Of a stretch of 64,000 nt of DNA, positions 1,137-38,146 are shown piece by piece (position 1 is the first letter of the stretch; every line of letters starts with the position of its first letter). Source of the stretch: Chlorobium sp. Lineage in GTDB: Bacteria; Bacteroidota; Chlorobiia; Chlorobiales; Chlorobiaceae. Under the pieces are notes generated by a model that saw only the letters and a program-made list of their open reading frames with translations, was not told the DNA's origin and did not search any database. The translations under genes and the position numbers were made by a program. The stretch spans positions 434,001-498,000 of the forward strand of contig SZXW01000010.1 of the NCBI GenBank assembly GCA_005862285.1, read 5' to 3'.

Positions 1137-2537
1137 TTACAGGTACATTTCCGGTGCAAGTCTTCTTGTGAACCGGTTCATCATGATGTTGGCCAACCAG
1201 ACCCAGTTCAATGGTTTTCCGCTCATCCTCTGCATGATGGCGCGTCCCCGGTACACCTCTTTTTGGAGCTTCACAAAGTTTTCAAGGAGTTTTTCGCCGG
1301 AAATTTTTCGTGGTTCGAACATGTAGTGGTAAGTGTCATACCTGCTCCAGTCAAAATGCCTCAGCCTTGGCTTCATCTCTTCGAAATACGGTGTCCCGGG
1401 AAAAGGCGTTACAAGGGAAAAAACAGGGAACTCTATCCGGTTCTGCATAATGAAATCGTAAGTGGCCTGAAAGCTTTTTTCATTGTCGTCATCAAAACCG
1501 AACATGAAATATCCCTGGATAGCCACACCGTTTCTGTGAAGGTTATTGACAACGGTAGAATAGTTCTGAAGACGATTGGCCCCCTTGTTCACTGTTTTCA
1601 GGACATCGGGGTTGAGTGATTCGAAGCCGATGCTCATCAGGTCGCACCCTGACCTTCCTGCGATCTCGGCAACTTCCGGTTTATGAAGAAAATTCATTGA
1701 GATATTCGCATTCCAACGAACTCCCAGTTTCTCCATCTCCCCGAGAAGTTCAGTGAAGTACTGGGGCCTGAAACTGATGTTGTCATCCATGAAAGAAAAA
1801 TTCACATTCTTCCGGTTCAGACGCTCCTGATGAGAACGCATTTCATCGAGCACCAGTCCTATCTCGCGATAACGGTAACTTTTTCCGTAAACTGTAGGAG
1901 TTGTGCAGAAATTGCACCCGACAGGGCATCCTTTTGTTGCAAGGATCGGAATTCTGGAACTGTATTTTCTGGCATTTTTCGATTGAAGGGCATACCCGAA
2001 ATCCGGCGAGCTCATAGCGGTCATGGATCGGAGTTCTTTTGCCCTGTAGACAGGCTTTATTGTTCCATTGATAATATCGGTTTCCAGTTCATCCCATATC
2101 GATTCAACTTCTCCGTAAACGACGCTTGTACAATGATGAATCGCTTCATCATGCATCATTGTCGGATGAACTCCGCCCAGCAAAACAATCTTTTTCTGGG
2201 CGAGAGCCTTGTCTCCAATGTTGTAGGCATTTCGTGCATTGAGTGTACGGGAAGTAATCGCCACAACATCGAAATCCGAAAAATCTTCAGGGACCCGATC
2301 CCCTATCCTCTCATCGATCAGTTTTACATCAAATAGTCTGCCGGCGAGTGTCGCAACCATAATAAGGTTCAGGGGCATGCTGACACTACCAGAATCAACC
2401 ATCATGCTTGTCGAGCTTTTCGGCTGGACAAGAAGCCATTTAGTTTTAGAATTGTCAGCCGAATCACTCTTTTTCGGATAACCGGATGCATGATGGCTTA
2501 TTGTCGACTTCGGATTGTTTGTATTTGCTGACAGCAT
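1137..2537 (-). CDS. B12-binding radical SAM protein, possibly a bacteriochlorophyll-modifying enzyme
   Basis: The 466-residue protein has an N-terminal cobalamin-binding-type domain (about residues 33-150, with the segment LLGGVHPTMMHDEA) followed by a radical SAM domain. The iron-sulfur cluster motif is visible as CPVGCNFC (Cx3Cx2C), and the barrel ends near TPFPGTPYFEEM. This architecture is shared by class B radical SAM methylases, including BchQ and BchR that methylate BChl c/d/e at C-8(2) and C-12(1), and by related enzymes such as BchE. It sits 57 bp after a CsmA-like gene and 63 bp before a chlorophyll synthase gene on the same strand. A pigment substrate is therefore likely, but the reaction cannot be read from the sequence. 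Confidence 0.8.
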   Translation of the reverse strand: MLSANTNNPKSTISHHASGYPKKSDSADNSKTKWLLVQPKSSTSMMVDSGSVSMPLNLIMVATLAGRLFDVKLIDERIGDRVPEDFSDFDVVAITSRTLNARNAYNIGDKALAQKKIVLLGGVHPTMMHDEAIHHCTSVVYGEVESIWDELETDIINGTIKPVYRAKELRSMTAMSSPDFGYALQSKNARKYSSRIPILATKGCPVGCNFCTTPTVYGKSYRYREIGLVLDEMRSHQERLNRKNVNFSFMDDNISFRPQYFTELLGEMEKLGVRWNANISMNFLHKPEVAEIAGRSGCDLMSIGFESLNPDVLKTVNKGANRLQNYSTVVNNLHRNGVAIQGYFMFGFDDDNEKSFQATYDFIMQNRIEFPVFSLVTPFPGTPYFEEMKPRLRHFDWSRYDTYHYMFEPRKISGEKLLENFVKLQKEVYRGRAIMQRMSGKPLNWVWLANIMMNRFTRRLAPEMYL

Positions 2538-2594
2538 GCGGCTTACTCTCTGCGGGTAAAATTACTTCTGAATAAAACTCTCCAAAACAGGCCT

Positions 2595-2852
2595 TCAGGC
2601 ATCAAATCTTTTCCTGATCTCTTTCGTGGCCTTCGCATATCCTGAAACTTCCGGAGAACTTCCTTTGTAACCGCCAATTGATGAAGAGCCGCCATACAGA
2701 TAGGGATAGGCGTTTGCGCCCAGCCTTTTGGTACATTTGCCGACATTTTCGAGATAATCACCGACAACCCACCAGTGCCCGTCAATAAACACTTCAAGTA
2801 AGCGGCCATATGCTTCGGCTCCCTGTACAAAAGCTCCGTTAATGCTGCTCAT
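2595..2852 (-). CDS. Chlorosome baseplate protein, CsmA/CsmE family
   Basis: The 85-residue product matches the CsmA/CsmE layout from end to end. It has a short N-terminus, an amphipathic helix GRLLEVFIDGHWWVVG with the His-Trp pair at residues 26-27, a turn NAY near residues 47-49, and the C-terminal block GSSPEVSGY followed by a KEIRKRF tail. In CsmA the equivalent His is thought to bind BChl a in the baseplate, and the C-terminal tail is removed on maturation. The protein differs from my memory of canonical CsmA (Cys40, YPYLYGG instead of a Gly-rich turn), so I read it as a CsmE-like or novel paralog rather than CsmA itself. It lies between a Nif11-like gene and a radical SAM gene on the same strand. 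Confidence 0.82.
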   Translation of the reverse strand: MSSINGAFVQGAEAYGRLLEVFIDGHWWVVGDYLENVGKCTKRLGANAYPYLYGGSSSIGGYKGSSPEVSGYAKATKEIRKRFDA

Positions 2853-2893
2853 TTTTTATCCGTTTAAATGTTGATCTGAAAAATCATTTAATA

Positions 2894-3394
2894 TTATGCT
2901 TTTACATGAGAGACTCGATTTCCCCACAAAGTATAGAATTGCGTTTCAACAGGGCTTTCGTCATCCCTGAATTTGTCAAGTTGTGCTTTCGCCTCTTCCT
3001 TCGTACAGTGCAAACCGTAAGCATCGATGATTTCCATGCGCTCGTCCATGTCTGCGGCAGACAATATTTGCCGACGAAACAATTCATCTGCCTCAAGTCG
3101 ATCAAAAAGTGTTTTTGACTCCGATTCTAACATTTCCCGGATATTTGAATGTTTTTTGATGTAATCCACTCCTGTTGCGAATCCGCACATTCCACCATAT
3201 TCATTCAGGCAAGTTTCAGCCGGCTCTTCACTGCACCGTTCTGTTATTGATGAAGAAACGTCGTACTCATTCCTGCTGATATGCTCATAACTGATTTCTC
3301 GCTTCTCATTCGTTCTGTCCTTTAATTCTCCCCAATTAATTCCAACTCTATATGAGGGGTTCTTTTCTGCTTTTTTTAACCTGATTAAAGACAT
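2894..3394 (-). CDS. Nif11-like domain protein, function unknown
   Basis: A 166-residue soluble protein. Its C-terminal third (about residues 94-142) has the pattern of the Nif11 domain: a helix LFDRLEADELFRRQIL, then a helix ERMEIIDAYGLHCTKEEAKA. Nif11 domains occur in proteins from nif regions and as leader regions of some modified peptides. Here the domain is C-terminal and is followed by only about 24 residues without a Gly-Gly cleavage motif, so a peptide-precursor role is not well supported. The N-terminal half is polar with four cysteines (54, 62, 70 and, later, 130). It is the first gene of the minus-strand cluster with the CsmA-like protein, 41 bp upstream of it. Confidence 0.7.
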   Translation of the reverse strand: MSLIRLKKAEKNPSYRVGINWGELKDRTNEKREISYEHISRNEYDVSSSITERCSEEPAETCLNEYGGMCGFATGVDYIKKHSNIREMLESESKTLFDRLEADELFRRQILSAADMDERMEIIDAYGLHCTKEEAKAQLDKFRDDESPVETQFYTLWGNRVSHVKA

Positions 3395-3850
3395 AAACGC
3401 CTCATTTTGTTTTAAGACAATCAGTTAAAGCCAGAATTCCATACCGGCTTCATACTGTCCTTCTCAAAAAGTCATTGTAAAAACCTTTCAATTTCTGAAA
3501 AATATATTACATTTATTACAATTATCATAATAATTACCAGCAAGATGACTTAAAACACTTTGTTCATTTATCATATTGTTTTATATACACTTAAATGAAT
3601 AAAAAAGCGTAATTGATGATTGTTCTGCTGACAATCAGATTCTATCTTACAAATCTATTACATCGCAATTATTAGAATTCTTTAGCCTTCGTTGTGGAAG
3701 ACTAAAAAGCAGGAAAATTGGATCAGTACGAGATGTGAAAATTAAGGGGGCGACATAGGTAATCTGCTAAGAAAGGCACTTCCTGCTGCTGAAACTAAAA
3801 AAGGCATTTCTCTATACTCAATCTTTCATCAACCATAAAACATAACAGCT
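3395..3850. other. Divergent intergenic region of the chlorosome locus
   Basis: About 456 bases, AT-rich around 3470-3620, separate the minus-strand Nif11/CsmA-like genes from the plus-strand CsmB-like gene. Both promoters should lie here. I see no convincing gene, operator palindrome or RNA structure. Confidence 0.5.
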
Positions 3851-4066
3851 ATGGCAAACGAAACACCAAACCCTATGAACAATCTCACGGAATCAATCGG
3901 AAAACTTGGACAAATGCAGGTTGATCTGATCACCAATGGCATTAAATCGGCAACAGCTGTATTTGAGCCATTAAGCAAAACATCTATTGAGATTACAGGT
4001 AACGTTTTAAATGCCCTTAACCAGGCACTGCAGAACATTTCGTCAGCGATCGCTCCAAAAAAATAA
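3851..4066 (+). CDS. Chlorosome envelope protein, CsmB/CsmF family
   Basis: A 71-residue amphipathic, weakly hydrophobic protein. The features LGQMQVDLITNGIKSAT, EPLSKTSIEI, and the end QNISSAIAPKK agree with the CsmB/CsmF family of chlorosome envelope proteins, which are of this length and end in a short basic tail. These proteins sit in the lipid monolayer around the chlorosome. It opens a run of four small plus-strand genes (3851-5127), divergent from the CsmA-like gene. Assignment to CsmB or CsmF specifically is not possible by eye. Confidence 0.75.
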   Translation: MANETPNPMNNLTESIGKLGQMQVDLITNGIKSATAVFEPLSKTSIEITGNVLNALNQALQNISSAIAPKK

Positions 4067-4083
4067 GCTGTACTGTTGTGATG

Positions 4084-4113
4084 AAAGCACCTCCCGTAAA
4101 TCGAGAGGTGCTT
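4084..4113 (+). terminator. Hairpin after the CsmB-like gene
   Basis: AAAGCACCTC (4084-4093) pairs perfectly with GAGGTGCTTT (4104-4113), giving a 10-bp stem with a 10-base loop, 18 bases after the stop codon. The following bases (CCACAT) lack a T-run, so it may act as a partial terminator or an mRNA-stabilising hairpin that sets the CsmB-like transcript apart from the next genes. Confidence 0.55.
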
Positions 4114-4147
4114 TCCACATCTATTTCAAAAAAAACAATAAAGATCC

Positions 4148-4405
4148 ATGTCCGAATCAAAAACCTTGCCCGCAAACGCATCTTCCGATGGAATCAAAGG
4201 ATTGGCAATGATGGCGCCTGTCGTCGGTGTTCCTCTTTTTGTTCATGCAATGGGCGGAGTATTTCTTACGGGAATTGGATTTTTTGCTCTTTCACCTATA
4301 ATCGCCCCTTTTAAAAAAAGCATTTTTAAAGCGACAAAAAACATGCTCATTGATACATATTCAAGTCTCGAGAAAAAAGTAATAGACCCTGTTAAAATCA
4401 AATAA
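4148..4405 (+). CDS. Small hydrophobic protein, possible CsmC/CsmD-type chlorosome protein
   Basis: The 85-residue product has a polar N-terminus, one long hydrophobic Gly-rich segment (about residues 18-53) with His33 in FVHAMGGVFLTGIGFFA, and a basic C-terminal half. The same pattern, [FL]-[VL]-H-[AG]-[ML]-[GA]-G then G-[IL]-G-[FV]-F-A, recurs in the protein at 4861-5127, so the two are related. CsmC/CsmD and the C-terminal part of CsmH are known small hydrophobic chlorosome proteins of similar character. Placement next to a CsmB-like gene supports this, but I recognise the family only loosely. Confidence 0.55.
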   Translation: MSESKTLPANASSDGIKGLAMMAPVVGVPLFVHAMGGVFLTGIGFFALSPIIAPFKKSIFKATKNMLIDTYSSLEKKVIDPVKIK

Positions 4406-4425
4406 GAAAAAAAGGTACAAGAGTA

Positions 4426-4677
4426 ATGGAAAATAATGCCATATCGAGAATTCTCTGGATGCAGGCAGTCAAGGGGGCCTGGAATGCTTACATAGAAAGA
4501 ATGAGTAGTATATTAATGCACAGCAAAATGGAGTCGTATCTCAGTCAGAAAATTGATATGGGGATGACACTCGAAGAATTCGCGGAAAACATCTTTATAG
4601 CCGGATTTGTTGCTGGTGAAAAACATAATGCAAATTATATGCTTGGCAACAAGAAATGCGAACCAAATCTTAATTGA
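4426..4677 (+). CDS. Small helical protein of unknown function in the chlorosome gene run
   Basis: An 83-residue protein predicted to be mainly helical, with a hydrophobic patch IFIAGFVAGEKHNA near residues 56-69 and an acidic helix before it. I recognise no family. The start codon lies 20 bases after the preceding stop, so it is probably co-transcribed with the hydrophobic protein upstream. No signal peptide or clear membrane span is visible. Confidence 0.6.
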   Translation: MENNAISRILWMQAVKGAWNAYIERMSSILMHSKMESYLSQKIDMGMTLEEFAENIFIAGFVAGEKHNANYMLGNKKCEPNLN

Positions 4678-4860
4678 TAATAAATATTTATAAATCCGTA
4701 TTTTTATTCCTTTATGATCTTTAATCAAAATATAACTTGAATTTTTTGTTTTACAGATTGAGTTAGCAATGTTTATTAAGATATAAAGATTCTGTCGTTT
4801 ACCTGCTTTCATAAAGACAAATAAAAAAAGGTCCTTTTCATTATTTAGAATATTTATCCT

Positions 4861-5127
4861 ATGAATCAAACTGACACTGCAAATCTGGTGAAAAACGCAG
4901 TGGGCGTCGCTGGTGGAGCTGCATTAATTGCGCCTGTTGCGCCTATTGCTCCTCCTTTACTGCATGGTCTTGCAGGTATAGCCGTCGTCGGTCTCGGAGT
5001 TTTCGCTGTCGGGTCCCTTGCATTAAAAGTAGTTGAAACTATAGCAGGAGCAGATAATCCTTTTAAACCAAAAGAAAGCACAAAAACCAGGCAACCGGAA
5101 AAAATCCAGTTTTATTCACATAAATGA
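4861..5127 (+). CDS. Small hydrophobic protein, possible CsmC/CsmD-type chlorosome protein
   Basis: The 88-residue product is dominated by an Ala/Gly/Val-rich hydrophobic stretch (about residues 13-58) containing His35 in LLHGLAGIAVVGLGVFAVG, followed by a charged tail. It shares the His-x3-Gly and GLGxFA arrangement with the protein at 4148-4405, so the two are probably paralogs. Together with the CsmB-like gene upstream they look like components of a chlorosome envelope. The gene is 183 bp from the preceding one and may have its own promoter in the AT-rich gap. Confidence 0.55.
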   Translation: MNQTDTANLVKNAVGVAGGAALIAPVAPIAPPLLHGLAGIAVVGLGVFAVGSLALKVVETIAGADNPFKPKESTKTRQPEKIQFYSHK

Positions 5128-5298
5128 TTTTTCTGCAGCTGCAATTCATATCTTTTTGCCTTATTTCATCAGATTGTTGTTCACTTTAAAAGAGTCTGAT
5201 ATTTTACTTTCTCACAGTGATTATTTTTCAGACAGATATCTTTTTATCTGGAATCCTTTCCCGAAACAGCTGTTGAGATAGTAAAAATGAGTTGATTT

Positions 5299-6228
5299 AT
5301 GGAGGAACTTCTCCCTTTAAGCTGGACAAGAATCGAAGGCATAAAGGCTGTTTACCGGGATATTCTGCTTCCGGTATCCCGTACCCGTTGGGTTACTTTT
5401 GCCGATATACCTCACGAATACACTTTTCAGATTCTTTATGAAGACCTTTGCCGGACTTATCCGGATGGATATGTTATAAGGGGATGCACTCCCGAAATGG
5501 CAGATTTTTTTCACCTTGAAAAGTGCTATATGGTGAGATCTGGAGCTGAAGCGGTTCTCGATCTTAACCGACCGCATATGAAAAGAAAAACAATATCGGC
5601 GTCTCTGAACAGAGGAATAAAGCATGGACAAGTTGAAGAAATTTCCTTAAACAACTCGACGGTTCATCAATTCGATGCATTCAGAAGGGAAACAACACAT
5701 GCTGAAAAACCGCAGCTGTCTCATGTATTCAGGCAAAACCTTTCACTGGACAAACGAACATTTGTGTTCTGCTCGTATTCCGGCAAATGGCTTGCCTTAA
5801 TCACCATTTCAAGGCGTGACCGGTTTGCTTTTCATACTGAGCTCATGCTCAGGCATCGCAATGCACCTGGTGATATCATGGAATGCCTGGTGGCGGAAAT
5901 ATTTGAAATCCTGAGAAGTGAAGGAATTCAGGAATGGAGCCTGGGAGAAGTCCCTTTCGTGTTTCCGGATCAGGCTGCGGAGGAACCGCAGAATCCTGTC
6001 GAAAAACTCATACTGACCATAGCATCTTCCTGCAAATACGCTTATGATTATGAAACCCTCTATCGTTTCAAAAACAAGTTCTCTCCCGTCTGGCGTCCCG
6101 TTATGCTCTGCACCTACAATCCACCAACAACTGTTTTACTTGCCGAACTTGCCTTCGCAATGGGATTCACAAATCTTCTTGCATACGAGTCTTTGATGAT
6201 GACAAGAAAACTGCTGAACCTTCGTTGA
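5299..6228 (+). CDS. DUF2156 / phosphatidylglycerol lysyltransferase C-terminal-like protein
   Basis: The 309-residue soluble protein resembles the GNAT-like C-terminal catalytic domain of MprF (LPG synthase), including the two-lobed arrangement with FHTELMLRHRNAPGDIMECL followed by LRSEGIQEWSLGEVPF and a basic YRFKNKFSPVWRP segment. MprF proteins transfer an aminoacyl group from tRNA to phosphatidylglycerol, but the membrane flippase half is absent here. Stand-alone DUF2156 proteins exist and their substrates are mostly unknown. It lies 171 bp after the small chlorosome-type genes and appears to be a separate unit. Confidence 0.7.
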   Translation: MEELLPLSWTRIEGIKAVYRDILLPVSRTRWVTFADIPHEYTFQILYEDLCRTYPDGYVIRGCTPEMADFFHLEKCYMVRSGAEAVLDLNRPHMKRKTISASLNRGIKHGQVEEISLNNSTVHQFDAFRRETTHAEKPQLSHVFRQNLSLDKRTFVFCSYSGKWLALITISRRDRFAFHTELMLRHRNAPGDIMECLVAEIFEILRSEGIQEWSLGEVPFVFPDQAAEEPQNPVEKLILTIASSCKYAYDYETLYRFKNKFSPVWRPVMLCTYNPPTTVLLAELAFAMGFTNLLAYESLMMTRKLLNLR

Positions 6229-6379
6229 GACATATGGTCAACGTATGTTGTCCAGCTGATGTTTTACGTATAAAAATTATTATCGGCAAACTATGACAAT
6301 ACTGTAAATCACTTTTTTTAATAATTTCAGCCATAAATGCCTGTAAAATCCTGATTACCCATATCCAAACAGCGGACCT

Positions 6380-7096
6380 TTATGAAACAACACTGTCAGG
6401 ATTTCCTACCTTGTTCCATACCTCGTCACGCAGCAGAACAGCTCTTCCGGCATCAATCAGACCTGGTTTTATGAATTCTTTCCAGACAGGCTTATCGAAT
6501 GTTTCATGAAGATACTGCCACCATGACTGGATCACCGAAACTGCTTTTAATGTAACATCTTCAGTCTTGTCTGCAAGGAAAAAACCAAGGGCAAGGTCCA
6601 TATACCCATAAGTGTCAATAGAATCAACAGAGGTGGTGACGACATGAATATCATAACCGGGAAGATATGTTGCATAATAGGTTTCCGGCCATGATAATCC
6701 CGGTTGTGAATCATCCCAGTTTATTTCGAACAGATGAGCCGGAAATATCACTTCATTTCTCATGCGCACCGCGCAATCCCATGCCTTGCGCCCGATAACT
6801 GCCGAACCGTCAGCCTGGATTGATAACCCCTGGGGCAGCCGTTTCTGCACAGAAAAAACTGAAATCTCTGCGACCCTGTTTGAATCCATGAGCAAGTCTT
6901 TCTGCAGATATCCAGGGGTTTTCTGTATCCATCGTTGCAGAACAATCTGCTCATCCCTTGTATACAGTGAGGGAATTACCATACTCTCATGAAAAATCAT
7001 TGTACCTCCTGTTTGATATGTTTGATACTCCCACGGCGATGTAATAAGCTCTTTTAAATAATTCAGTGCCGGGTTCACTGACATGTCCGAACGCAT
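6380..7096 (-). CDS. Conserved hypothetical protein
   Basis: A 238-residue soluble protein that I do not recognise. It has no signal peptide or membrane span. Visible features are a central acidic/aromatic region with PGYDIHVVTTSVDS and a helical C-terminus rich in Trp. An internal ATG (Met5 or Met32) could be the true start. It stands alone on the minus strand between plus-strand genes. Confidence 0.55.
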   Translation of the reverse strand: MRSDMSVNPALNYLKELITSPWEYQTYQTGGTMIFHESMVIPSLYTRDEQIVLQRWIQKTPGYLQKDLLMDSNRVAEISVFSVQKRLPQGLSIQADGSAVIGRKAWDCAVRMRNEVIFPAHLFEINWDDSQPGLSWPETYYATYLPGYDIHVVTTSVDSIDTYGYMDLALGFFLADKTEDVTLKAVSVIQSWWQYLHETFDKPVWKEFIKPGLIDAGRAVLLRDEVWNKVGNPDSVVS

Positions 7097-29440: not shown

Positions 29441-29516
<76 letters not shown>

Positions 29517-29532
29517 TATAAACATAAGTAAT

Positions 29533-29566
29533 AAAAGCCTCTCAAACAGCAGAGGCTTTTCGCTTT
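29533..29566 (+). terminator. Terminator after tRNA-Gly
   Basis: AAAAGCCTCT (29533-29542) and AGAGGCTTTT (29551-29560) form a 10-bp stem with an 8-base loop, followed by CGCTTTTT. It likely ends the tRNA transcript. Confidence 0.85.
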
Positions 29567-30454
29567 TTATGCCCTGCTTCTTTACCTTCTTCCCATCCGG
29601 GAATAATCCCATGAACACGCCCCTTTCCCTTGCTCAACCTTATAACAAAAAATATTTTAAGATTTTTTTAAGGTTGGATTAATGATCCTTTAAGGTTTGG
29701 TAACGTATACTTATCTCCATAAGATCATTGTAATTTTTCTCTCGAACTTTTCATAACATTTTAATTCATCGTTATTGACCGATGAAAAACGATCCAGGAT
29801 CATTAGCCATATTGCGGATATTAACAATTGTTACCCGTTTTTCTGTACCCATCTGCCCCCCCCCATTTTCAATGCATTATTATTTTTGAAAATAGTTCTG
29901 AGCATACAGCTTCATCACAACAATAAATACAACGGATGATCAAAATATTAAATCGACTCAAAATCTTCTGAGCTTTTTCGGTCAGGTCTGTTTTCATCAA
30001 GAATGATATAAAAAAATCAGTTTGTCATTGTCTTTTACAACAACAGGTTTTCATGTTTCAATCATCAAAACCTGAACTGACACCTTTTTTTACTTCGCCA
30101 TCATGAACCCGAAGATTGGCATTTCTCTGCTGGTAAAAAAATATATCGCCCCTTATCACTTGTATTATTCGTATCTATTTCGTATTATTTACACCTTTAT
30201 ACTTATATAATTTTTCATACCAATTACAAAGGCATGCATTCAAGAGCTTTCTGGTACACGCAACTATTCAGAACCTGATTTGGAGAAACAGTGTTTAAAA
30301 GGCATTCTTTTTACCTGTTCACGATCCAAATCATACATAGAATTAATTAGAATATTGTACTTAAAATAATAGCACCAAGGAATTGCTGTGCTCATATTTT
30401 ATAAAAAGAACAAGAATAAAATTAAATAATAACCTGTAAAAAAAGGGAGAAATT
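29567..30454. other. Long AT-rich region upstream of the cytochrome pair
   Basis: About 890 bases contain no credible coding sequence. A 9-C run occurs near 29856-29864. The region is AT-rich and ends in the AGGGAGA ribosome-binding site of the cytochrome gene. A long untranslated leader, small RNA or operator region for the cyc2-like operon is possible, but nothing definite is visible. Confidence 0.4.
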
Positions 30455-30838
30455 ATGAAGACGAAAGGTGTACTGATGTTTTTCTTATTTATGTCCGCAT
30501 ACAATGTCAATCAACAATCATATGCTGACAGTTTACAAAAGGATTGTCAAAAGCAGGATAAAATAACTGTCAATGAAAATGCAATGAGTTCAACATTTAA
30601 CATCACCGAAAGAAAGAAAAAATACACATCCTGCGGATGCTGCGCCTGTCATGACAATAGTGTTATGGGCGCACCAAAACCCGGAAACAAAGCTTTATGG
30701 TCATCAAAAATGGCCGGCGGCTGGAATCATATCGTTAAAAATGCGATAGAAGGTGTTAACAATATGCCTGCAAAAGGCGGAAATGATTCTGTCAGCAACA
30801 AGGATATAGAAAACATAGTTGCGTATATGGCCTCTTAA
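30455..30838 (+). CDS. Small c-type cytochrome, c5-like
   Basis: The 127-residue product has an N-terminal hydrophobic segment (signal peptide, cleaved near SYADS) and one haem-binding motif CCACH (residues 62-66). Two further cysteines sit just before it. The C-terminal half GAPKPGNKALW, HIVKNAIEGVNNMPAKGG and DIENIVAYM is the cytochrome c5 pattern, in which the Met of NNMPAKGG is the likely axial ligand. The SD AGGGAGA precedes the ATG. It lies 82 bp upstream of a Cyc2-like porin-cytochrome, so it probably carries electrons from it across the periplasm. Confidence 0.82.
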   Translation: MKTKGVLMFFLFMSAYNVNQQSYADSLQKDCQKQDKITVNENAMSSTFNITERKKKYTSCGCCACHDNSVMGAPKPGNKALWSSKMAGGWNHIVKNAIEGVNNMPAKGGNDSVSNKDIENIVAYMAS

Positions 30839-30920
30839 ACGCACTGAAAGACTACTTATTTATCTTGTCAAGTTTCCTTTAACAATCAACCTTTTCAATC
30901 CTTTAAACGAGAATCAAATT

Positions 30921-32162
30921 ATGAAATTTAAACTGCGTGCCGTTTTATTCGTTTTCGGAGTATTGAGTTTTTATGCATGCTGTGCTCAAAAAGCATCAGC
31001 TACTCCAGTATTTGCCCGTCAGACGGGATTTTCATGTACTGCATGCCATTTTGAGCAGTACCCGATGTTGAACGCTTTCGGCCGCAATTTCAAAGCTGAA
31101 GGATATACTGCAACCGGTAACGGCAAACAGTCACGCATTGATGACGAAAACCTCTCATTACCATCGACATTGAACGCCGCTTTTGTAAGTAAGCTGCGTT
31201 ATCAGAAAACAAACGGAAATTCACCGGATGTTCTTACGAACGATGGAAACTTTTCGATTCCGGACGAAGCCTTTCTTGCCATAGGAGGTCGGCTGACAAA
31301 GAACATCGGTTTTGAACTCGGGCTCTCTGTTGTTCCGGGAGACGTTAAAGATGGAAAGGTTCTGGCTGATTTCAAGCTCCCGATCACCACAAAAGTTAAC
31401 GACTTCGTGCTGAGCGCAATTCCGTTCACGACTTCATCGCAGGGACCGGCATACGGTTTCGAGCTGTTGAATACCGGTGCGGTCGAGTTCGCTCGCGCTT
31501 TGGAAAATGGTGAAGAAACTTCGGCACAGCAGTATATGGGAACCGCTATCGAATCAACCGGCGTAGCATTTGTCGTTTACAATAAATACGGGTTCATCAA
31601 TTATACTCCTTATGTCATGACACAGGGAGATTTTGCAACGAAAAAGCCAGCTCACTACATCAGGGGTGCGGTTACCCCGTCTATCGGTGACTGGGACCTT
31701 GGAGCAGGCTTCCAGATCTGGACAGGAACATCGAAAATCAAAAATGACGGTGGTTTGATGATCGAGAACCGAGCAGATGCATGGGCACTTGATTTCCAGG
31801 CTCAGGGAAAAGTCGGCGATCTGCCTCTCGGTGTATATGCCTCTTATGGAAATGCAGCAAAATCAGTTGACGGAAACCCGGTGAACGTTTTCAATGAAAA
31901 TACCTGCAAGGACCTCAACGCATTTGTGTTTTCCGGAATGCTCGGAGTCATTCCGAACAAGCTCTCACTTGGTGCAGCGTACAGAATTGCCAATACCGGA
32001 GCAAGTGCCAGCGACTCAGACAATGCATTCACCCTGGGACTGGCGTATATGGTTGCTAAAAACATCCAGTTCCAGTTGAACCACAGCTTCTATTCGGGAA
32101 ATACACACACAAGCGAAGAAGGAAACAATCTGACCACTCTTGTTTTATACAGCGCTTTCTGA
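30921..32162 (+). CDS. cyc2: Fused monohaem cytochrome-porin, Cyc2-like (outer-membrane Fe(II) oxidase candidate)
   Basis: From ATG 30921 the product has 413 residues. A signal peptide ends near KASA (residue 27). It is followed by TPVFARQTGFSCTACH, the single haem motif at residues 39-43, and MLNAFGRNFKAEGYT. The P-x-F-A-R-Q-T and FGR-F-K-GY blocks around one CxxCH are the hallmark I know of Cyc2, where a haem domain is joined to an outer-membrane barrel. The remaining 350 residues are alternating, barrel-like and end in Phe (LYSAF). Cyc2 oxidises Fe(II) at the cell surface, and homologs occur in iron-oxidising Chlorobium species. An upstream start at 30819 would spoil the signal peptide. 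Confidence 0.8.
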   Translation: MKFKLRAVLFVFGVLSFYACCAQKASATPVFARQTGFSCTACHFEQYPMLNAFGRNFKAEGYTATGNGKQSRIDDENLSLPSTLNAAFVSKLRYQKTNGNSPDVLTNDGNFSIPDEAFLAIGGRLTKNIGFELGLSVVPGDVKDGKVLADFKLPITTKVNDFVLSAIPFTTSSQGPAYGFELLNTGAVEFARALENGEETSAQQYMGTAIESTGVAFVVYNKYGFINYTPYVMTQGDFATKKPAHYIRGAVTPSIGDWDLGAGFQIWTGTSKIKNDGGLMIENRADAWALDFQAQGKVGDLPLGVYASYGNAAKSVDGNPVNVFNENTCKDLNAFVFSGMLGVIPNKLSLGAAYRIANTGASASDSDNAFTLGLAYMVAKNIQFQLNHSFYSGNTHTSEEGNNLTTLVLYSAF

Positions 32163-32223
32163 TAATATTCGAAAGTATGAAAAGAGAAAAAAAAGTTATC
32201 ACAAGTGGTTTACCAATAATGAA

Positions 32224-32256
32224 AAAGGGCTGCCTGAAAAGGCGGCCCTTTGCTTT
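32224..32256 (+). terminator. Terminator of the cytochrome operon
   Basis: AAGGGCTGCC and GGCGGCCCTT form a near-perfect stem with a short AAAA-type loop, followed by TGCTTT. It lies about 60 bases after the Cyc2-like stop codon. Confidence 0.75.
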
Positions 32257-32329
32257 CATACATAGTTAATACATTATTTTAAAAGCAATAGCAGTATTTG
32301 AGAAGCAATATCCGGATTCTCTCTAAAAG

Positions 32330-32370
32330 AAAGAGGCTGCCTCATGATCAGTATATGAGGCAACCTCTTT
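32330..32370. repeat. Hairpin with GCTGCCTCA arms
   Basis: AAAGAGGCTGCCTCAT (32330-32345) pairs with ATGAGGCAACCTCTTT (32355-32370), with one mismatch. It shares the CTGCCTC core with the next hairpin at 32403-32435, so the two look like related copies between convergent genes. Confidence 0.6.
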
Positions 32371-32394
32371 CCGTTTTCACTTCATACAGAATCA

Positions 32395-32435
32395 GCAAAA
32401 AAAAGCTGCCTCAAAATTGACTTTTGAGGCAGCTT
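32395..32435 (-). terminator. Terminator of the Lys/Ala-rich secreted protein gene
   Basis: AAGCTGCCTCAAAA (32403-32416) and TTTTGAGGCAGCTT (32422-32435) form a perfect 14-bp stem. Read on the minus strand it is followed by a run of T, the normal form of an intrinsic terminator, 58 bases after the stop codon. Confidence 0.85.
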
Positions 32436-32493
32436 ATGGTCATCTATCTACCAATCGGACGGTTACCCGTCAAACTGGAAAGCTGTTGAAAGC

Positions 32494-32712
32494 TTACTTT
32501 TTCTCTTCGGCTGGTTTCTCTGCAGCTTTCTTTGCTTTCTTAACTTTCTTTGCTTTTTTGGCTTTCTTTGCTTTAGGAGCTTCAGGAGCCTTCTCTTCAG
32601 TTTTTACAGCAGCTTTGTCAGCAGCTTTGTCAGCAGCGAAAGAAACTGTTCCAAATACTCCGCTCATAGCGAGAGAAACGATCAGGCCGGCGACGATCTT
32701 TCTGGTGTTCAT
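32494..32712 (-). CDS. Small secreted Lys/Ala-rich protein
   Basis: The 72-residue product has a signal peptide (VAGLIVSLAMSGVFGTVSFAA) followed by a low-complexity tail of AAD, KAEE and KKAKKAKK repeats. After cleavage the mature protein would be about 45 residues, strongly basic with interspersed Glu. No family is recognised. A similar small protein with a Lys-rich tail is encoded at 50418-50624. A role in the cell envelope or nucleoid-like binding is not established. Confidence 0.7.
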   Translation of the reverse strand: MNTRKIVAGLIVSLAMSGVFGTVSFAADKAADKAAVKTEEKAPEAPKAKKAKKAKKVKKAKKAAEKPAEEKK

Positions 32713-32984
32713 AACTTGTTGTTAAATTAGGTTTTTAGGGATACAACTGTTCTTTTTTATCTGAGAACCAATTGTAATACGCGCCTTATTATCATTTTCT
32801 TTCAAAAATTTATAAAAAATATTTTTTTCATACACGAAAACAGGTGTAATTAACAGATAGTCATCATGTATTATAATGGCATATACCTGATTTGGTTCAT
32901 ACCGTTTTAAGCCTGATCACGAAAGAGACGTAACCTTTCAATAAAACCGAAATATCTTCTGCTCCATAAAAGCGCACCGAATAA

Positions 32985-34924: not shown

Positions 34925-37900
34925 ATGCCTCCTGTACCAACAAACATATTTCTTAAAGGTGACAGCAAGAATAATTTGCTTAACGGCGGTTCCGGAAATG
35001 ATACACTTGACGGAGGAGCAGGTGCCGATACCCTTCTTGGCTATAGTGGCAACGATATTTACTATGTCGATAACATAAGCGACAAAGTATACGAAACAAC
35101 TACGGCAACAAGCAGTACTGACGCCGGGGGTATCGACACGGTTTTCAGTTCCGTATCGTTCAACCTGAATGCGTACAAAGGAGTTCAGTTCGTTGAAAAT
35201 CTGGTATTGACCGGTTCCGCGAATATCAATGGCACCGGAAATGATCTTGACAATATCCTGACAGGCAACAGCGGTATCAATATGCTTGATGGAGGAGCGG
35301 GAAACGACACCCTCTATGGTATGGGCGGCAATGACAATCTTGTCGGCGGTACCGGTAATGATTACTTCGATGGCGGGGATGGCAACGACAATCTGAATGG
35401 CGGTGACGGCAATGACAGCTTTTATGGAGGCGCCGGTAATGATTACCTCGATGGCGGCGCAGGCGAAGATAAAATGTATGGTGACGCCGGAAAAGATGTA
35501 TTGGACGGCGGTGACGGCAATGATATGCTGAATGGCGGCGCTGATGTTGATTCTCTTTTTGGCCGCGCAGGAAACGATACATTGGATGGTGGTACCGGCG
35601 GTGACAATCTTTATGGCGGGGAGGGAGATGACAGCCTTTATGGCGGCCTCGACAATGATTCACTTATCGGCGGCGGCGGCATCGATACATTGGATGGTGG
35701 GGATGGCATCGATACCGCAAGTTATGAAGATAAAACTTTAGCGGTAAGTGTCATACTGGCAGGAGCGTCTTATGCCGATGTAAAAGTCGGTGGTGTCAAT
35801 GAAGACAAAATCATAAATGTTGAAAATCTGGTCGGCGGATCCGGGGCGGATTCTTTTACCGGTGATTTGCTGGATAATACCCTCTATGGAGCTTCAGGGA
35901 ACGATACACTCAATGGCGGAGCAGGCAATGACAATCTCGTAGGCGGAGATGGCAATGATTCGCTCGATGGCGGAATCGGAAGTGATACAGCATATTATTC
36001 TGATAAAACATCAGCTGTCAGTGTTGCATTGGCTGGATCAACATTTGTCGATGTGAAGGTAGGAGGTGTCAATGAAGACAGAATCGCAAATATTGAAAAT
36101 CTGGTCGGTGGCTCGGGAGCCGATTCTTTTACCGGCGACGGGCTAGATAACATCTTCAATGGCGGTTTAGGGAATGACACACTCAATGGGGCCGGCGGAA
36201 GCGATACCGCAAATTACTCCGAGAAAACTTCTGCTGTCAGTGTTTCACTGAACGGATCAAGCTTCGTCACCGTCAGTGTCGGAGGTGTCGCTGAAGACAG
36301 TATCGCAAATATTGAAAATCTGGTCGGCGGGTCCGGCAATGACACTCTTACCGGCGACGGACTTGACAACATATTGAATGGCGGTTCCGGAAGTGACAGC
36401 CTTGCAGGAGCTGCCGGCAAGGATTATCTCATCGGTGGAGATGGTAATGATACTCTTGCAGGAGGAGACGGCACTGATACCCTCGATGGCGGAGCCGGTC
36501 TGGATACCGCAAGCTATGCCGACAAAACTTCGGCAGTCAACGTTACGCTGAACGGTTCAAACCCGGTTAATGTCTTCGTCGGTGGAACACTTGAAGACTC
36601 GATCCTGAATATAGAGTGCATTATCGGCGGATCGGGTGATGACTCTCTTACCGGTGATGCATCAAGCAATATGTTGAATGGCGGATCCGGCAACGACAGC
36701 CTTGTCGGTGCAGCCGGCGGCGATTACCTTGCCGGAGGAGACGGCAACGACACGTTCATCGGAGGAGATGGGAGCGATACTATTGACGGTGGAACCGGTT
36801 CGGATACAGTAAGTTATGCTGACAAAACTTTGGGAGTGGCTGTAACTCTTTTGACCTCAATGCTTGCAGATGTCAAGGTTGGAGGCGCCAATGAAGATAA
36901 GATTGTAAATGTAGAAAATATTATCGGCGGATCCGGTGCTGACTCCCTGACCGGAGACTCGTCGAATAATCTTTTAATGGGCGGAACTGGAAACGACACT
37001 CTTGCGGGGGGCGCCGGTTCAGATACCCTTGATGGCGGTGACGGCACCGATACGGCAAACTACTCCGATAAATCTTCGGCAGTGGTTGTTGCGCTTAACG
37101 GACCAACAGCAGCATCTGTCAGCGTTGGTGGAGCCGGTGAAGACTGGATAGTCAATATTGAAAATATCATTGGCGGATCCGGTGATGACATTCTTACTGG
37201 TGATTCGTCAGCCAATACATTCAGTGGCGGATCAGGTAACGACACCCTGGCTGGAGGTGGCGACAAGGATACCCTCGATGGCGGAGCAGGCTCAGATACC
37301 GCAAGTTATGCCGACAAATCTTTGGCCGTAAGCGTTACTCTGAATGGATCAACAGCAGTTGTTGTCAACGTTGGAGGAACAGTTGAAGACTCGATCGTCA
37401 ATATTGAAAATATCATTGGCGGATCCGGTAATGACACTCTTACCGGTGACTCGTTTGCCAATACTTTCAGTGGCGGTGGCGGCTCAGATTCTCTTGATGG
37501 TGGTGCCGGTTCAGATACCGCAAGCTATGCCGATAAATCTTCGGCAGTGGTTGTAACATTGACTGGTTCAACTCCAGCCTCAGTCACCGTTGGAGGAGTC
37601 GGTGAAGACTCGATTGTTAATATTGAAAATATTATCGGCGGGTCCAGTGATGACATTCTTACTGGTGATACGTTAAATAACCTGTTCAATGGCGGTTCAG
37701 GAAACGACACCCTGTCTGGAGGTGATGGCAAGGATACCCTGTTGGGAGGAGATGGCAACGACAGCCTTGTCGGCGGAAACGGAGATGATGTTCTGATTGG
37801 CGGTACAGGACAAGATACACTTTCTGGAGGTTCCGGCATCGATACATTTATCTATAAATCAGAATCCGATACCGGAACCACAGTGGCCACTTGGGATCAA

Positions 37901-38146
37901 ATCACCGACTTCACCTCGGGTGTTGACAAACTTGATCTTTCCGGAATCGATGCGAACACGGTTACTACCGGAGACCAGATGTTTACAAGCCTTGCGAGTG
38001 GAACATCTTATACGTTCAGTGCCGCTGGTCAGCTCTGGTTCGATACAACAAATAACATCCTCTATGGCAGCACTAATTCGGACAACATTGCCGATTTTGC
38101 CATCAAGCTTAACGGTCCGATATCTTCGTCTGACATCATCATGTAA
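34925..38146 (+). CDS. RTX repeat protein, probable type I-secreted surface protein
   Basis: The 1073-residue protein is made almost entirely of calcium-binding nonapeptide repeats of the form GGxGxDxLx. Eight larger modules of about 80-90 residues each combine a SYADK-S-AV-VxL strand, an E[ND][KSW]I-N[IV]E segment and a GGSG-D-LTGD RTX strand (about 35700-37680). The C-terminal 100 residues ([26 protein letters not shown]) resemble the serralysin-type secretion end. There is no N-terminal signal peptide and no enzymatic domain. It is likely a secreted adhesin or surface layer protein; no type I secretion genes lie nearby. Confidence 0.85.

Follow-up and report, generated by a model that had tools for sequence, protein, structure and literature searches.

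Cyc2 is a fused cytochrome-porin defined by an AXPXFAR[Q/K][T/Y] signature upstream of one CXXCH haem-binding motif, a PXL motif four residues later and a length of at least 365 aa (PMC8406198). Cluster 1 of the family includes the known iron-oxidising Chlorobium, as well as a Mariprofundus protein whose Fe(II) oxidation was shown biochemically and whose redox potential is suitable (PMC8406198). The barrel of the Cyc2 of Mariprofundus ferrooxydans PV-1 comprises 16 strands. Chlorobium Cyc2 has been placed sister to that of the Gallionellaceae, and its function in Chlorobi has been described as untested in culture (PMC9342728). The gene occurs in ∼40% of Chlorobium mOTUs (PMC8125076), its lateral transfer in Chlorobi is already published (PMC12442345), and Chlorobium sp. 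N1 makes use of sulfide as well as Fe(II) (PMC8302410).

The window analysed here, a stretch of 64,000 nucleotides from a Chlorobium sp., carries a cyc2 gene on the forward strand (30921-32162). The frame is intact, running from an ATG at 30921 to a stop at 32162, and encodes 413 aa with a hydrophobic N-terminus ending in KASA, read by eye as a signal peptide. A TTG start at 30819 would give a longer ORF; that ORF runs into the upstream gene and is not needed. The N-terminal motifs occur in the order ATPVFARQT-GFS-CTACH-FEQY-PML: the signature (30999-31025, forward strand), the only CXXCH of the protein, at residue 39 (31035-31049, forward), and the PXL motif four residues beyond it (31062-31070, forward). 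The protein thus agrees with the published definition in its motif, PXL, single haem and length (413 aa versus 365). In a six-frame translation of the window, the pattern P-x-[FY]-A-R-[QK]-[TY]-x(2,4)-CXXCH occurred once; it did not occur in any of 200 shuffles. The likeness to the PV-1 protein, the biochemically tested member of cluster 1, is one of description: a fused cytochrome-porin with the AXPXFAR[Q/K][T/Y] signature (PMC8406198). The partner cytochromes and aerobic chain of PV-1 differ from the system of the window.

The first-pass annotation had described one haem motif fused to a barrel-like protein, and structure prediction upheld the second half of that description as the intact ORF with its one CXXCH had the first. 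According to an AlphaFold2 model based on an 11-row alignment, residues 85-412 form a barrel of ∼16 strands; in the feature list, the predicted 16-stranded outer-membrane barrel covers residues 85-413 (31173-32159, forward strand). The mean pLDDT was 67, with most barrel blocks between 70 and 88. The cytochrome part (residues 1-81) had low pLDDT, and AlphaFold2 left this domain unplaced. In a Foldseek comparison against solved porins, the model matched general porins with a probability of 1.00 and a best E value of 1.9e-10. Pfam yielded a weak porin match of 18.1 bits, under the cut-off, and a sequence search of the PDB with the Cyc2 profile returned no relevant match. Cyc2 of the window is therefore predicted to possess a fused outer-membrane porin barrel, with the haem domain outside the confident part of the model.

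To place the protein, we used Cyc2 profiles made without the sequences of sub-clade A, the group to which it belongs (see below). It scored 565 bits against the profile of other Chlorobium Cyc2 and 495 bits against that of non-Chlorobium Cyc2. The barrel alone scored 448 and 382 bits, respectively, indicating that the match is independent of the haem motif. These scores bear on whether the protein is instead an ARKY-type, cluster-3-like relative. ARKY-type porins of Chlorobiaceae share the general architecture and the N-terminal cytochrome domain, including a signal peptide, an AIPAFARKY..CXXCH motif and a length of ∼430-450 aa; they also occur in Chlorobiaceae without Cyc2, and the window's own genome has two copies. 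However, their match to Cyc2 is essentially confined to the N-terminal cytochrome region, the profile of these paralogues gave the window protein 42 bits as against 565 for the Chlorobium Cyc2 profile, and the window motif contains QT, not KY. We consider an ARKY-type identity hardly credible.

In a 60-row tree, the protein fell inside a Chlorobium Cyc2 clade (support 100/100) that includes C. ferrooxidans, strain N1 and a P. luteolum MAG. The first-pass annotation had proposed Cyc2 and named a position outside the Cyc2 clade as grounds for abandoning that proposal; the tree and the 565-bit score instead bear it out. By its sequence, the window protein is a true Cyc2, and so adds a member to an already known family. 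It appears to be of the cluster 1 type, an assignment made by proxy through our own profiles and the Chlorobium clade, PV-1 lying outside the tree. Within the clade, it belongs to sub-clade A (100/100), whose members are uncultured bins, 66-69% identical to it; the sub-clade had no cultured Fe(II) oxidiser among the records compared. Its closest relatives are the Cyc2 of Chlorobium MAGs L227-2013-56, June25_Bin_2, MJ-time_bin-8753, Oct13_Bin_1 and AM3_bin-0403. One member is labelled Campylobacterales and is probably a mis-binned contig. The nearest cultured iron oxidisers, C. ferrooxidans and strain N1, possess the same signature, single haem, barrel and c5-like gene directly upstream; unlike these, at ∼54-55% identity, the window copy lies in a separate sub-clade. 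The rest of the clade (C. ferrooxidans, N1 and luteolum) formed a supported group in the 60-row tree (96/93), whereas a midpoint-rooted tree of Chlorobium sequences only placed N1 and luteolum closer to sub-clade A (91/94). Groundwater Myxococcota/Deltaproteobacteria MAGs adjoined Chlorobium in the 60-row tree, the sampling of which was bounded by the search patterns.

Upstream of cyc2 on the same strand lies a gene for a monohaem, c5-like periplasmic cytochrome c of 127 aa with an N-terminal signal sequence (30455-30838). The intergenic gap is 82 bp (30839-30920), as the first-pass annotation had reported. The protein contains one CXXCH, the CCACH at residue 62 (30638-30652, forward strand), and matches Pfam Cytochrome_CBB3 at 35.5 bits (cut-off 27); no NCBIfam model matched it over its cut-off. 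In a 15-row alignment it retained the class I pattern CXXCH...AP...W...MPxKGG...YM. Sub-clade A is accompanied by a c5 type with one residue inserted ahead of the haem motif, found also in the five MAGs named above. A c5-family gene beside cyc2 was reportedly already noted by Tsuji et al. in 2020, and we therefore claim no priority for the pair. True Cyc2 was present in 22 of the 65 genomes of the genus, the window's counted, and a same-strand c5-like gene stood just upstream of cyc2 in 21 of these 22, the exception being G050, whose Cyc2 has no linked c5. The c5 and Cyc2 trees agreed in their main groups, namely sub-clade A and N1 with luteolum. Together, the linkage and the common deep groups indicate that c5 and cyc2 move as a pair. 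The two trees gave the window sequences different exact positions inside sub-clade A, though weakly supported ones, and the window c5 formed the longest branch of its tree, making its match to the window Cyc2 less certain.

The c5 gene is not exclusive to genomes with Cyc2; this was ruled out, as c5-like genes of the same type accompany another cytochrome-porin, the SWARKY type described below. Additional c5-like genes with no cytochrome-porin neighbour were found at L150 (4341-4712), L151 (3071-3553) and L149 (599-991) in the C. ferrooxidans-like genomes G024, G028 and G041. The upstream regions of the sub-clade A c5 genes contained no convincing conserved block that could be a common promoter element, and sigma-70-like sites upstream of c5 were not over chance level.

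The pair occupies a variable site. On its left is a tRNA-Gly(GCC) gene identified by ARAGORN (29441-29516, forward strand), followed by a terminator-like hairpin (29533-29560, forward) that is the last left-side sequence in common with the nearest relative, G039. The rpoB genes of the two are 99% identical and the DNA around the site is 86-87% identical. According to blastn, the 2.8-kb stretch containing the c5-cyc2 pair (29561-32395, forward) is absent from G039, which has ∼21 bp in its place, between the tRNA-Gly hairpin and a second hairpin. The hairpin-bearing sequence at the right edge (32396-32479) is 92% identical in G039. The stretch has a G+C content of 39.8%, versus 46.9% for the window. 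Other genes fill the same interval in G044, the next relative, and in G076. In G050 it is cyc2 itself that is found between trpB and the tRNA-Gly gene; these differing contents mark a variable spot. An insertion in the window's lineage is a simpler reading than a loss in G039. A second stretch, 32480-32953, is also missing from G039; it contains, on the reverse strand, a 72-aa, Lys/Ala-rich, secreted-looking ORF with a signal peptide and no Pfam match (32494-32712). Further downstream, a gene for an RTX-type repeat protein of 1073 aa (34925-38146) lies in a region that aligns with G039, which is without cyc2; the RTX gene is thus not tied to the insert.

The composition of the insert and the empty site in the sister genome could also indicate a recently acquired module that is not yet integrated, or is decaying, and plays no physiological part, a reading to which the low G+C of the c5 gene and its long branch would likewise be suited. 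We judge it quite improbable: both frames are open, the alignments showed all invariant positions of Cyc2 and c5 to be retained in the window copies, and the G+C content of cyc2 agrees with that of the window.

The distribution of the trait across the genus extends this picture. Genes flanking cyc2 differed in most Cyc2 genomes, and the chromosomal flanks of the sub-clade A MAGs were unlike those of the window. On an rpoB tree of 36 genomes, the presence and absence of Cyc2 required 11 changes. The sub-clade A hosts do not form a clade with the window's species: a single clade for them was rejected on rpoB (AU p=2.7e-6), indicating a lateral gain or loss of the trait. Overall, c5-cyc2 is best explained as a two-gene module spreading laterally in Chlorobium. 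Beside the published transfer, the empty site and the movement as a pair are added detail. Carriage by a virus or plasmid was considered and rejected, there being no relative in viral contigs or the plasmid collection; no integrase was seen adjoining the pair.

In the mechanism we propose, dissolved Fe(II) would be oxidised by the N-terminal cytochrome of Cyc2, at its one haem, in or on the outer-membrane barrel, a step suggested by the PV-1 biochemistry (PMC8406198). Oxidation at the outer membrane would keep ferric iron outside. The electron would next reach the periplasmic c5-like cytochrome, as the gene linkage and common tree structure suggest, and from there to the photosynthetic reaction-centre chain. 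We infer Fe(II) as the substrate, c5 as the partner, the downstream route, the regulation and growth on iron.

The genome itself also encodes a DsrA that exceeds the cut-off and has a DsrB-like neighbour; a genome search found SoxB to be absent. Within the genus, DsrA was found in 11 of the 22 Cyc2 genomes versus 32 of the 43 without Cyc2 (Fisher p=0.059, uncorrected for kinship). Sulfide oxidation is likely an alternative or the main donor pathway. An alternative iron oxidase of the MtrA class was considered and rejected, as no decahaem over the cut-off was found in the window's genome. The weak match to the decahaem model TIGR03508 was a cytochrome gene with ten CXXCH on contig 7 of the same genome (L104, 1345-2220); at L010 and L018, both luteolum loci, the start of a similar gene is located ∼1.2 kb from cyc2.

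Given DsrA in the genome and the precedent of strain N1, a facultative role for iron is the best guess. An alternative is that Cyc2 serves as a general port for extracellular electron uptake, from an electrode, a partner cell, a mineral or other reduced solutes, with sulfide as the normal donor and a main role other than growth on Fe(II). The genome combines DsrA with two further cytochrome-porins, half of the Cyc2-bearing Chlorobium genomes contain DsrA, and for a green sulfur bacterium, an electrode or Geobacter can act as the electron source (PMC5227917). However, Fe(II) oxidase activity, together with a suitable potential, has been proven for cluster 1 Cyc2 (PMC8406198), and true Cyc2 occurred in none of the 21 genomes searched of another Chlorobiaceae genus, indicating that electron uptake in the family is independent of Cyc2. 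We regard the general port as unlikely. We favour, with reasonable confidence, a cluster 1-type Cyc2 with a c5-like periplasmic partner as a laterally spreading iron module that is used optionally. The pair suggests a potential for life on dissolved iron and light, and the gene content points to an organism that can probably oxidise Fe(II) facultatively, with iron as an optional donor beside sulfide. The first-pass annotation had read the locus as likely photoferrotrophy; its basis, a true Cyc2 paired with c5, stood, and the wording should be softened to a probable ability to oxidise Fe(II) facultatively, in view of a sub-clade without a cultured, tested member among the records compared and the presence of DsrA. 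A DsrA-bearing species would thereby join those green sulfur bacteria that are probably facultative iron oxidisers, its iron module being a compact pair placed at a tRNA-side site that is either occupied or empty. Near-sister genomes, one having the pair and the other lacking it, offer a natural comparison for asking whether Cyc2 and c5 suffice for photoferrotrophy.

Other cytochrome-porin modules occur in Chlorobiaceae. A search for c5 relatives yielded a second module, comprising a c5-like gene and a 'AIPSWARKYNVSCYMCH' (SWARKY-type) cytochrome-porin accompanied by TlpA-like, DUF3570 and RTX-like genes. Some of the genomes that carry it have Cyc2 and others do not: L144 (G032; 2471-6716), L145 (G064), L147 (G073), L148 (G085) and L152 (G084). 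In the C. ferrooxidans-related G028, similar genes of the TlpA-like and DUF3570-like kinds come after true cyc2, whereas the window cyc2 stands alone. True cyc2 is likewise followed by DUF3570-like, DUF4266 and TlpA-like genes in L043 and L049, and in L056 without a confirmed TlpA-like gene. Similar accessory genes beside true cyc2 (L043, L049 and L143) and the SWARKY porin make the porin look exchangeable. We found no literature joining Cyc2 with DUF3570.

An ARKY-type porin heads a same-strand run of genes for Rieske, cytochrome b, petD-like, eight-CXXCH cytochrome (∼873 aa), cytochrome c and cupredoxin-like proteins. The run is present in the window's genome (L003, 403-1746, and L141, 12822-18999; contig 7, about 237.8-245.9 kb), where a ferredoxin gene was also seen in it, and similar runs occur in two genomes from a second genus in Chlorobiaceae (L167, 2792-10888; L170, 3194-11042). 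For G007 and G011, the genes of the run were read from the ORF list, without a Pfam scan. The run is possibly an electron conduit from the outer to the inner membrane. Tentatively, and with some doubt, the window pair could be one form of an exchangeable port system, in which a c5-like carrier works with alternative cytochrome-porins (true Cyc2 or SWARKY) and the ARKY Rieske-cytochrome b-octahaem-cupredoxin run links the outer to the inner membrane. If so, extracellular electron uptake would be common and modular in Chlorobiaceae, beyond a few iron oxidisers. The third cytochrome-porin of the genome (AIPAFARKYHTACSTCH; L142, 8561-10716, contig 9) is followed by a plastocyanin-like copper protein, and a protein resembling that of this locus is encoded near cyc2 in L049, L050 and L054.
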